A stretch of DNA of 64,000 nt from Demequina pelophila (GTDB lineage: Bacteria; Actinomycetota; Actinomycetes; Actinomycetales; Demequinaceae), in NCBI RefSeq assembly GCF_000971175.1, contig NZ_BBLY01000004.1:430298-494297 (forward strand), given 5' to 3'. Shown piece after piece: positions 3,239-44,333 of the stretch. The notes beneath the pieces were generated by a model. The model was not told where the DNA came from. It made no database searches and saw nothing but the letters and a program-made list of their open reading frames with translations. Position 1 is the first letter of the stretch. Each line of letters starts with the position of its first letter. The position numbers and the translations under genes are program-made.

Positions 3239-3287
3239 GCATCGTCCCCGGCCCGCGCATCGTCCCCGGCCCGCGCATCGTCCCCGG
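3239..3287. repeat. 18-bp tandem repeat, 2.7 copies, at a convergent gene junction
   Basis: The unit GCATCGTCCCCGGCCCGC starts at 3239, 3257 and 3275. The third copy ends early, at GGTC. Each unit contains the genome-wide motif GGACGATGC on the minus strand. The array is flanked by GACCGGG (3233-3239) and CCCGGTC (3283-3289), so transcripts from either side could fold into a stem. It may serve as a bidirectional terminator. Confidence 0.85.
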
Positions 3288-7377: not shown

Positions 7378-8604
7378 ATGGGGGGAGAGCCTGTCGCTCT
7401 CATCGAAGAGCGGGTACGTGAGGGAGTGCGCGCGGCGGGGATGGACCCGGCGCGCGATGTCGACGCCGTGCGGGCGCTGGTCGAGGCCGCGGTCGACGCC
7501 TGGGAGGAGCGCGCGCTCGTGGGCGACGGCGACCCGCTCGCCGACCGGGCGGCGGTCGCCAAGGCGGTGCACGATGCTGTGGCCGGGCTGGGGCCGCTGC
7601 AGTCCCTGCTCGACGATCCGACGATCGAGGAGATCTGGATCAACTCGCCGCACGAGGTGTACGTCGCCCGCGGCGGGGTGAGCGAGCTCACGAGCCTGCT
7701 GCTCGACGAGGCGACCGTGCGGATGCTGGTCGAGCGGATGCTCGCTGCCGCGGGCCGGCGGCTCGACCTCTCCAGCCCGTTCGTGGATGCCGCGCTCCCG
7801 GGCGGGGAGCGCCTCCACGTCGCGATCCCGGACGTCACCCGCCGTCACTGGGCCGTCAACATCCGCAAGTACGTGGCCCGCGCGACGAGCGTCGACGACC
7901 TGGTGCGCCTGGGCATGCTGCCGGCCCAGGCCGCGGCCTTCCTCGCCGCGTCCGTCGAGGCGGGGCTGACCGTCCTGGTCAGCGGAGGCACCCAGGCGGG
8001 CAAGACCACCACGCTGGGCGCGTTGGCGGGCGCGATTCCCGCGCGCGAACGCGTGGTCACCTGCGAGGAGGTGTTCGAGCTCGCGGTCCCCGTACGGGAC
8101 ACGGTCGCGCTCCAGTGTCGCCAGCCGTCTCTCGAGGGCACGGGCGAGATCCCGCTGCGCCGGCTGGTCAAGGAGGCGCTGCGCATGCGGCCCAGCCGCA
8201 TCATCGTGGGCGAGGTGCGCGAGGCCGAGGCGCTCGACCTCCTCATCGCTCTGAACAGTGGCGTTCCCGGCATGTGCACCATCCACGCGAACTCCGCGCG
8301 GGACGCGCTCGCGAAGATGTGCGCGCTGCCGCTCCTCGCCGGCGGCAACGTCACCGATCGCTTCGTCGTGCCCACCGTCGCCTCTGCCGTGGACCTCATC
8401 GTGCACGTGGGGATAGGCCCCGACGGATCGCGGCGCGTGAGGGAGATCCAGGGCGTCTCCGGCCGCGTCGAATCCGGAGTGATCGAGTTGACTGAATTGT
8501 TCGGGTGGCGGGACGGCGAGCTGCGTCGCGGCGGCGGCTTCCCGCCGCACCCGGACCGCTTCGAGGCGCGCGGCATCAACGTCGCCGGATTGCTCTCCGC
8601 ATGA
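7378..8604 (+). CDS. tadA: Tad pilus assembly ATPase TadA/CpaF
   Basis: A 408-aa secretion ATPase that powers assembly of Tad/Flp pili. The Walker A motif is GGTQAGKTT (203-211), the Walker B region is IIVGEVRE (275-282), and the His-box is GMCTIHANSA. The start at 7378 gives a normal N-terminal domain. No good Shine-Dalgarno precedes it, and TAATGT at 7365-7370 could be a -10 box giving a near-leaderless mRNA. It is the first gene of a seven-gene run with 4-bp overlaps. An upstream septum-site/CpaE-like gene, common in actinobacterial Tad loci, is absent. Confidence 0.93.
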   Translation: MGGEPVALIEERVREGVRAAGMDPARDVDAVRALVEAAVDAWEERALVGDGDPLADRAAVAKAVHDAVAGLGPLQSLLDDPTIEEIWINSPHEVYVARGGVSELTSLLLDEATVRMLVERMLAAAGRRLDLSSPFVDAALPGGERLHVAIPDVTRRHWAVNIRKYVARATSVDDLVRLGMLPAQAAAFLAASVEAGLTVLVSGGTQAGKTTTLGALAGAIPARERVVTCEEVFELAVPVRDTVALQCRQPSLEGTGEIPLRRLVKEALRMRPSRIIVGEVREAEALDLLIALNSGVPGMCTIHANSARDALAKMCALPLLAGGNVTDRFVVPTVASAVDLIVHVGIGPDGSRRVREIQGVSGRVESGVIELTELFGWRDGELRRGGGFPPHPDRFEARGINVAGLLSA

Positions 8605-21684: not shown

Positions 21685-22200
21685 GATGCGTGTCCGGGCT
21701 GTGCCTGTGCCGGTGCCCGTGCTCACCCCGCGCCTACGCCTGCACCTGCGCCCGCCGCCCGCCGCCGCCCACCGCCCGCCGCGCCTCCCGCCCGCCGCGC
21801 CTCCCGCCCGCCGCGCCTCCCGCCTGCCGTGCCTCCCGTGTGACGGACGATGCGCGGGTTTGTCCGTCATGCGGGTCGGCCCGGGCACGTATGGCGGACG
21901 ATGCGGCGAAGAGTCCGACATCCGAGCCCCCGGTAGCCGCGGCGGGAGTGGCCGTGACGGTGCCGGTGCCGGTGCTGGAGATGGGGCGCCCGTCCTGCCA
22001 CCGATGCCGCCACTTGCGCCCGCCCCCCCGCGGAGGACGAGGGTCGCGGCCCTGGTGCGTGTCCGGGCTGCGCCGCGCCTCCCCTGTGACGGACGATGCG
22101 CGGGTTCATCCGCCATACGTGCTCACGCCAACCCGTATGGCGGACGATGCAGAGAAGAGTCCGACATCCGAGCTGGTGGCACCGCCAGCGGTAGCCCCGC
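21664..22200. repeat. Duplicated palindromic non-coding module carrying the GGACGATGC motif
   Basis: Two diverged copies lie in this gene-free stretch. GAGGACGAGGGTC...GTCCGGGCTG occurs at 21664 and 22033. GAAGAGTCCGACATCCGAG occurs at 21908-21926 and 22154-22172. Each copy has a central inverted repeat around the motif. In copy 1 it is TGACGGAC/GTCCGTCA (21841-21848, 21862-21869) and in copy 2 it is TCCGCCATACG/CGTATGGCGGA (22109-22119, 22134-22144). GGACGATGC appears four times (21845, 21896, 22091, 22142). Copy 1 also has three 15-bp C-rich tandem units near 21780-21825. No plausible protein is encoded. It resembles a REP/BIME-type extragenic element. Confidence 0.75.
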
Positions 22201-31483: not shown

Positions 31484-31846
31484 GGGGATGATCGGTTTCG
31501 ACGTGTGCCTACTCGTCGGGGGAAGCGGGCCGAGGATGCTCGGTTATCTCGCAAACGCCCCGAGCAAACCATAGGTGCCGATAACAAGCGCACCGACTTC
31601 GCCCTCGCTGCCTAAGCGAGCCCCGAAGTCCGTCAGCCCGGGCGTGTTCCCGTCCCGGATCCTGGCGTCATTTAGGGAACTTGCTTCAGCTCCTCGTCAT
31701 TGGGAGTTGCGGGACTTTTAGATGACTGAGCCCGCTCGTTGTGCGCCTGACCGCGAGCGAGGGGCCGAGAAAACCATAGTCAGGCTGCGCCCGGAGAAGA
31801 CCTGGCGATATGCATGCGGACGCGGGTTCGATTCCCGCCATCTCCA
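31484..31846 (+). ncRNA. ssrA: Transfer-messenger RNA (tmRNA)
   Basis: The 5' GGGGATGATCGGTTTCGAC and the 3' GGGTTCGATTCCCGCC...ATCTCCA close the tRNA-like domain. The acceptor stem pairs GGGGATG with CATCTCC. The tag frame starts at GCC 31577 and ends at TAA 31613-31615, encoding ADNKRTDFALAA, with the terminal ALAA recognised by ClpXP. With SmpB it rescues stalled ribosomes. The 3' CCA is not encoded (CTC follows), so it must be added. Confidence 0.96.
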
Positions 31847-31865
31847 CTCATCCCTGTCTGGATAG

Positions 31866-41428: not shown

Positions 41429-42045
41429 CCGTGCCCCGCCTCGCGATCGCGACGCGCAACGCCCACAAGGTCGATGAGATCTGGGCGATCCTCGCCCCGC
41501 ACCTGCCCGGGGTCGAGCGCCACGACGTCGCGTCCGCGATCGACCTCGACGCGCCGTCGCCCGTCGAGGACGGCGTGACGTTCGAGGCCAACGCGCTCAT
41601 CAAGGCCCGCGCGCTCGCGGCCGCGTCCGGCATGCCCGCCATCGCGGACGACTCCGGGATCGCCGTGGACGTCCTGGGCGGCGCGCCCGGTGTGTTCTCG
41701 GCCCGGTGGGCGGGATCGCATGGGGACGATGCGGCCAACCTCGCGCTCCTGCTCGACCAGGTGGGCGACGTGCCCGACGAGCATCGCGGGGCCCAGTTCG
41801 TGTGCGCCGCCGCGCTCGCGACCCCGGACGGGGGCGACGTGGTGGTGCTGGGCCGCATGCCCGGCCGCCTGGTCCGCGCCCCGCGCGGCGAGGGCGGCTT
41901 CGGCTACGACCCGATCTTCGTCGCCGAAGGCGAGGAGGTCACCAACGCGGAGCTCTCGCCCGAGCGCAAGAACGAGATCTCGCACCGGGGCGCGGCCTTC
42001 CGCGCGCTCGGGCCGCACGTGGCGGCGGTGCTCGGGCTGCGCTGA
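41425..42045 (+). CDS. rdgB: dITP/XTP pyrophosphatase (Ham1 family)
   Basis: A 206-aa enzyme that hydrolyses dITP and XTP to keep deaminated purines out of nucleic acids. Motifs are [37 protein letters not shown] (core DDSGIAVD) and GFGYDPIF with [10 protein letters not shown]. The GTG at 41425 overlaps the rph stop (GTGA); a second in-frame GTG lies 6 bp on. It contains an in-frame GGACGATGC (HGDDAANL). Confidence 0.95.
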
Positions 42046-42072: not shown

Positions 42073-42107
42073 GGGACGATGCGGCGGCCGGGTGGCCGCA
42101 TCGTCCC
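42073..42107. terminator. Bidirectional hairpin made of two inverted GGACGATGC copies
   Basis: GGGACGATGCGGC (42073-42085) pairs perfectly with GCCGCATCGTCCC (42095-42107). It lies between the convergent rdgB and NUDIX genes. The 13-bp stem consists mainly of the genome-wide 9-mer in inverted orientation. Confidence 0.85.
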
Positions 42108-42109
42108 GC

Positions 42110-42652
42110 CTACAGCAGGACGCCGCAGTGGGCGAGCGCCTGGCGCACCAGGTGGTGCTGGCCCCCGGCCATCTCTGCCGCCACGTCGTCGGAGGCCGCC
42201 TCCTCGGGCGACAGCCAGGTGAGGTCGAGCGCGTCCTGGCTGGGCTCGCACGGCCCCTGGACGGGCACCACATAGGCGAGCGCGACCGCGTGCTGGCGCG
42301 AGTCGTGGAAGGGGCCGGCGCCCTTGGACGGGAAGTACTCCGCGACCGCGAAGGGCGTGGGGGACAGCGGCACCTGCGGCAGCGCGCCGATGCCCAGGTC
42401 CTTCTCGATGTTGCGCACGATCGCGTCGCGGATGGACTCGTGGTAGAGCACCCGGCCGGCGACGATCGCCCGTGAGATCGCGCCGTCGTAGGCGCGCAGC
42501 AGCAGCCCGACGTTCGTGACCTTGCCCATGGGACTAATCCGCACGGGGATGACGTTCACGTACACCACAGGGAGTTGGCCCCGCACATGCTGCAGTTCTC
42601 GATCGGACATCCACCCGGTGGGCTCGTCAGGGAGCTCGGCCATGTCGGTCAT
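42110..42652 (-). CDS. NUDIX-family protein (DUF4916 type)
   Basis: This 180-aa protein resembles the actinobacterial NUDIX-related family DUF4916 (SDRELQHVRGQLPVVYVNVIPV, VTNVGLLLRAYDG). The canonical Nudix box GX5EX7REUXEEXGU is not intact: the region YHESIRDAIVRNIEKDLGIG keeps only part of it. Enzyme activity is therefore uncertain. Two ATGs (42652, 42643) are possible starts. Confidence 0.78.
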   Translation of the reverse strand: MTDMAELPDEPTGWMSDRELQHVRGQLPVVYVNVIPVRISPMGKVTNVGLLLRAYDGAISRAIVAGRVLYHESIRDAIVRNIEKDLGIGALPQVPLSPTPFAVAEYFPSKGAGPFHDSRQHAVALAYVVPVQGPCEPSQDALDLTWLSPEEAASDDVAAEMAGGQHHLVRQALAHCGVLL

Positions 42653-43990: not shown

Positions 43991-44027
43991 AGAAGGCAGT
44001 GACCAGCGGTTTTGGTCACTGCCTTCT
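43991..44027 (+). terminator. tRNA-Lys terminator
   Basis: AGAAGGCAGTGACCA (43991-44005) pairs perfectly with TGGTCACTGCCTTCT (44013-44027). CTGTTTTC follows, giving a classical intrinsic terminator. Confidence 0.93.
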
Positions 44028-44333
44028 CTGTTTTCAGCGCTCTTCACGGTCGAACTCCCCAAGAACTCGCGGAAAACGTGCGGGACGATGCGGCATCGGG
44101 GTCTGCCCTGAGCCCGGTTGACGATCGGGGGATGCGGTCGTCAGCCCGCGGTCGCGGCGGTGCCTTGGAGTTCGAAGTGGGCATTGATCTGCTCGCCGTC
44201 GACGTGAGGGCGCAGCTGTGCTGCACCCTCCTCTCCGACGTCGATCTTGTTGCGGTTCCCGCACCTTGATTTCGTATCAATTCTAAGTTGTATGGGCTAA
44301 CTTGGATTCGAGACGTAAAAGAATGGGGTTGCG
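44028..44333. other. Gene-poor lower-GC stretch before the fic gene
   Basis: I see no credible gene here. Short frames on both strands are low in complexity. One GGACGATGC copy is at 44083. TTGAT-N5-ATCAA (44266-44270, 44276-44280) and the A/T-rich TTCTAAGTTGTATGGGCTAA just upstream of fic look like its promoter and operator. The tRNA-Lys 3' end next door is a common integration target, but I found no second copy of it. Confidence 0.5.

Follow-up and report, generated by a model that had tools for sequence, protein, structure and literature searches.

The window analysed here, a 64,000-nt stretch of Demequina pelophila DNA to whose numbering all window coordinates refer, holds an rdgB/Ham1-family gene and a DUF4916/NUDIX gene that converge on a gap of 64 nt (Table 1). 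Genes were called with a codon-based gene finder and not taken from annotation, and the finder missed that the NUDIX gene starts further upstream. Two exact 13-mers lie inverted in the gap and are complementary at 13/13 positions, which confirmed the perfect 13-bp stem between convergent genes described in the original prediction. The hairpin starts 27 nt past the stop codon of rdgB and 2 nt past that of the NUDIX gene. RNA folding of 45 nt gave −34.4 kcal/mol on the forward strand and −30.6 kcal/mol on the reverse strand (z of −5.0 and −5.5 against 200 shuffles), and the stem had 13 or more pairs on either strand.

Table 1. Features at and around the hairpin site, in window coordinates
Feature	Position	Strand	Evidence or remark
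rdgB/Ham1-family gene	41431..42045	+	Pfam Ham1p_like 9.6e-61
Lone exact 13-mer copy within rdgB	41723..41735	+	exact match
Motif copy GGGACGATGCGGC, 5' arm of stem	42073..42085	+	exact match; core 42074-42082
Loop of 9 nt separating the stem arms	42086..42094
Inverted motif copy, 3' arm of stem	42095..42107	-	exact match; folds on both strands
DUF4916/NUDIX gene, convergent with rdgB	42110..42652	-	Pfam DUF4916 4.6e-75, NUDIX 3.4e-05
Lone exact 13-mer copy near the hairpin site	44082..44094	+	exact match

As a GC-rich stem-loop just 3' of two convergent stop codons, the site shows a feature of intrinsic terminators and resembles a Rho-independent bidirectional terminator, but it differs from the latter in that no U-tract was seen on either side of the hairpin when the sequence was inspected. 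The terminator scan of the window did not list the hairpin, and it had no match in Rfam, whose matches in the window were a tmRNA gene (31484-31849) and three tRNAs only. Meanwhile, the scan and Rfam together placed a stem with a U-rich tail at 43991-44027, just 3' of a tRNA. Hence, U-tract terminator-like sites are present in the D. pelophila genome.

The NUDIX loci of 23 Demequina-like relatives were then compared at the same site. The gene directly adjoining the NUDIX gene was rdgB in seven of them (L016, L021, L022, L024, L025, L027 and L029), while rdgB lay at least 508 nt away in the other 16. None of the seven carried a facing motif pair at the site. A lone dialect copy, lying in the gap or at the stop codon, was present in three of the seven: GGCCGATGC in D. 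aestuarii, GGACGATGC in D. oxidasica and GCCCGACGCT, overlapping the stop codon, in isolate Ww84. Because the pair was found in 0/7 relatives and single copies in three, the rdgB/NUDIX hairpin is, as judged from these loci, not a conserved terminator but a local pairing of a word that appears and disappears. The proposal of a bidirectional terminator was supported only in part: a GC-rich stem-loop lies at the convergent stops, but a U-tract was absent here and at 30/30 facing pairs of this genome (described below), and the hairpin was not seen at the site in relatives.

Abundance and pairing of the motif in D. pelophila

The 13-mer had at first been taken as the repeat unit; the repeated core is instead GGACGATGC(G), whose flanks are weaker. 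Across the 2.68 Mb of the whole genome, the core GGACGATGC occurs 1,294 times (641+653), compared with 13 times (4+9) for the reversed-motif control, while the exact 13-mer occurs 65 times genome-wide against 0 for its reversed control. With up to two mismatches, 33 copies of the 13-mer were found in the window versus 11.1 in shuffles. GGACGATGC was the top over-represented 9-mer of the window (38 versus 2.0 expected) and ranked first again over 400 kb of the same genome (182 versus 12.7).

In a 464-kb sample of 220 copies, 156 were coding, 63 intergenic and one straddling, so the motif was about three times denser between genes (1.13/kb) than within them (0.38/kb). Weak flank preferences were observed before GCATCGTCC (C at −8, G at −7, C at −5, −4 and −1) and after it (C at 10, G at 12), with at most about 0.5 bit of information per base. 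They were similar in the 156 coding and the 64 other copies and are therefore not a codon effect; a codon-usage artefact was rejected on this ground. The alike flanks and the threefold intergenic density indicate a constraint at the DNA level independent of the coding frame. Both strands were used without orientation bias (F:R 80:102, counted in 50-kb bins over 400 kb of one contig), and the spacing of copies was exponential (mean 2,155 nt, sd 2,155 nt). Since the longest motif-free gap, 12.7 kb, was as expected from such spacing, motif-free gaps were discarded as marks of foreign DNA. Two local groupings were observed in the window. Three same-direction copies with 18-nt spacing lie at 3239-3283 inside a 55-nt convergent gap, and a 676-nt intergenic stretch contains, at 21845-22150, a pair of longer direct repeats, in each of which two motif copies stand 42 nt apart.

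Two copies within 30 nt were counted as a pair, the facing arrangement being GGACGATGC...GCATCGTCC. The original prediction had held that inverted pairs should exceed what single-copy density provides, and they did: D. pelophila has 30 facing pairs and 14 of the opposite inverted arrangement, each against 4.8 expected from density. Allowing for the higher intergenic density raised the facing-pair expectation only to about 6 (hand calculation). Direct pairs were in excess as well (43 versus 9.7), and thus not all clustering in this genome is hairpin-related. Across 16 motif-rich genomes, for which the expectations in relatives use rounded genome sizes, the two inverted arrangements numbered 407 and 310 against 88.3 each, and direct pairs 525 against 176.7. 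When the two outliers G004 and G038 were left out, the remaining 14 genomes gave 374 and 270 inverted pairs against 74.4 each, and 228 direct pairs against 148.9. Inversion itself, beyond mere clustering, is favoured in most genomes. The two outliers contained 141 and 156 close direct pairs versus 11 and 17 expected, which may be tandem arrays. Some facing pairs abut without a spacer and form an 18-bp perfect palindrome, GGACGATGCGCATCGTCC, in D. pelophila, G002 and others.

The 30 facing pairs of D. pelophila comprised 25 intergenic pairs (9 convergent, 14 tandem and 2 divergent) and 5 coding ones. Their leaning towards stop codons, likewise anticipated, was confirmed by the genome-wide scan: 18 of the 25 intergenic pairs start within 40 nt of the upstream stop, compared with 15% of positions placed at random in the gaps between genes of the 464-kb sample (p about 3e-10), and 14 of the 25 start within 20 nt, compared with 8.5% (p about 2e-9). 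All 63 intergenic copies of that sample showed a weaker lean, with 17 within 20 nt and 26 within 40 nt. The stem extended beyond the core by a mean of 3.8 bp over the 30 pairs versus 2.4 bp for random intergenic pairs, which is only modestly above random, as simulated means reached up to 4.3 bp in 2,000 runs.

Dialects of the word across the genus

Three clade-specific words that share a core, GCATCGTCC, GCATCGGCC and GCGTCGGGC, were found within the genus. GGACGATGCG occurred in 711-1,564 copies in 15 of the 44 genus genomes and in 10-235 copies in the others, and at most 80 times in each of 105 searched genomes outside the genus. D. sediminis (G026) had 235 copies of the 10-mer and 984 of the 9-mer; its 10-mer count is low because the preceding base is mostly G. 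GCATCGGCC reached 718-2,018 copies in 16 other congeners, with reversed controls near 100. G009 contained 908 copies of AGCGTCGGGC (control 11) and G012 254, while other congeners had at most 52. About 11 of the 44 congeners showed no clear strong dialect; the genome of G041 is only 50% complete.

Outside the genus, most counts of GCATCGGCC differed from the control by no more than two- to three-fold. Some ratios were higher (for example 227 versus 22 in G073, 276 versus 58 in G083 and 127 versus 27 in G044) and are read as probable composition effects. D. pelophila itself also carries 664 copies of GCATCGGCC (control 111), and these copies of another dialect resemble the 'peregrine' DUS of Neisseria, a term used in the part of PMC3630211 that was available.

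The dialect words have GC-R-TCG and an upstream CC in common, and in 8/8 sets examined C was more frequent than any other base at both −5 and −4. When k-mers were surveyed with no word chosen beforehand, the dialect words ranked first or close to it in most of the genomes sampled; the fragments obtained for G008 were left out, and G010 and G014 were included after resampling. The samples of G001, G018 and G021 yielded weak words, and that of G003 no more than a weak excess of AGCGTCGGC. In a tree of AlaS sequences from 10 genomes, the sequences having been recognised by eye, the three GCATCGTCC genomes formed one clade (support 100/99) and two GCATCGGCC genomes paired (95/93), with G009 on a long branch. 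A second abundant word, CTCCGCCACAC, was noted in samples L096, L097 and L124-L128 of D. sediminis (16 in 140 kb), perhaps from one repeat array.

A candidate uptake-sequence system

Genes for DNA uptake are widespread in the genus. ComEC was found in 43 of the 44 genomes, and in D. pelophila it adjoins ComEA (SLBB + HHH_3). The pilus cluster of this strain encodes PilB, PilT, PilC, PilA, minor pilins, a PilX-like protein, PilD and PilM, as for type IVa pili, next to genes that we take, by eye, to be aroE and aroC. Each of the 10 genomes searched, that of the sister genus (G044) among them, had paired pilus ATPase genes, and both the ATPases and ComEC also occur in G003 and G018, congeners without a strong word. 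As nearly all genomes have both, the presence of ComEC and T2SSE was rejected as a discriminator between motif-rich and motif-poor genomes. Such machinery would permit uptake, without demonstrating it. The ComP receptor is electropositive; PilA, two minor pilins, the PilX-like protein and ComEA of D. pelophila are all acidic (pI 4.0-4.7), and no basic ComP-like pilin was found in its pilus cluster.

Uptake sequences are a textbook case of self-tagged DNA. The original idea that the motif is such a signature sequence is strongly supported by the genome-wide counts, the dialects and the excess of inverted pairs at gene ends. We therefore regard the motif as probably a DUS/USS-like uptake word of Demequina, whose inverted pairs would double as 3'-end hairpins. 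As with the DUS of Neisseriaceae, a short non-palindromic word is present in about 1,000-2,000 copies on both strands, varies by clade around a shared core (here GC-R-TCG), is enriched between genes and forms facing pairs at gene ends, in a genome with type IV pili and ComEA/ComEC. Differences exist as well: the Demequina word is unrelated and GC-rich, its host is a Gram-positive actinobacterium, the pairs in D. pelophila have no U-tract, and the pilins examined are acidic. The word also resembles the USS of Pasteurellaceae in its core 9-mer with weaker spaced flanks, its high copy number and its clade subtypes. The flanks of the Pasteurellaceae USS are A/T-rich, whereas those in Demequina are C/G, and sequence and phylum are unrelated. 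Apart from the U-tract and a recognisable receptor, the Demequina word follows the DUS pattern in those features that are accessible to sequence analysis, and we suggest, with fair confidence, that it works like a DUS system. In the available parts of the respective papers, DUS are reported to lie often in close inverted repeats acting as terminators (Treangen 2008, PMC2397512) and to comprise eight dialects built on a common core, with inverted pairs present in every DUS genome (Frye 2013, PMC3630211).

Under this uptake-word reading, some component of the type IVa pilus would have a binding preference for motif-bearing DNA; retraction by PilT would draw this DNA in, ComEA/ComEC would hand it on, and recombination would follow. 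Preferred uptake would let the word accumulate genome-wide as a tag of self-DNA, with a wording that drifts by clade, and copies would become densest where they are tolerated, that is, between genes and just past stop codons. Where two copies face each other, as between rdgB and the convergent NUDIX gene, they could provide both genes with a shared GC-rich 3'-end hairpin that is terminator-like or RNA-stabilising.

An unlikely but still serious alternative is that the word is a binding or methylation site of some DNA-maintenance protein, which drifts by clade without any link to transformation. Strand balance, exponential spacing and high copy number would suit any genome-wide site of this kind, and HIP1 of cyanobacteria is likewise a very abundant short word that varies between species. 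However, HIP1 is palindromic and the Demequina word is not; the extended spaced flank of the latter, the gathering of facing pairs just past stop codons and the parallel between its clade dialects and those of DUS also speak against a HIP1-like site.

We consider it improbable that the motif is solely a transcription-end element, that is, a preferred stem for gene-end hairpins copied by selection, of which the single copies would be decayed halves. This would account for the crowding of facing pairs near stops (within 20-40 nt) and for the excess of both inverted arrangements over expectation in each of the 16 genomes counted. But at most about 60 of the 1,294 copies in D. pelophila belong to the 30 facing pairs, and 156 of the 220 sampled copies lie inside coding sequence, where a terminator would harm.

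A polar replication or recombination motif, Chi-like or KOPS/FRS-like, would share the high copy number of a non-palindromic 8-10-mer, but it is very improbable and was rejected, as orientation skew was absent both in the 400 kb of D. pelophila and in spaced samples of G009, G026 and G015, and clade dialects occur inside one genus. Equally improbable is a dispersed, REP/MITE-like mobile repeat, the hairpin site then showing its palindromic ends: clustered direct copies do exist, notably in G004 and G038, but most copies lie in genes and the low flank information leaves no conserved unit beyond the core, so that this candidate was rejected too.

With the uptake-word reading thus preferred, the evidence leans slightly towards a third origin of self-DNA tagging beside Neisseriaceae and Pasteurellaceae, namely an uptake-sequence system that evolved independently in Actinomycetota, formed dialects there and is recognised by the type IVa pilus of a one-membrane cell. 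If so, an unrelated dialect-forming word in an actinobacterium would mean that uptake tagging evolves repeatedly and that an outer membrane is not required, and it would offer a new system for finding the receptor and for testing why self-DNA tags spread. Uptake sequences were discussed for Neisseriaceae and Pasteurellaceae in the accessible portions of the literature found. No uptake sequence in Actinobacteria was described in the literature searched, though one may nevertheless have been published. PMC6370729 describes ComP and also the Flp pilus of Micrococcus luteus, an actinobacterial model of transformation for which the portion at hand names no uptake sequence.

Two minor observations concern the machinery genes. 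ComEC matches were split in two at the loci of G009 and G026 (L171, L174), with an internal stop in G026, owing to either real decay or sequencing error. The window itself encodes, at 7585-8403 (G000:C8:437882-438700), a T2SSE-family ATPase that probably belongs to a Tad pilus, the type serving transformation in M. luteus.
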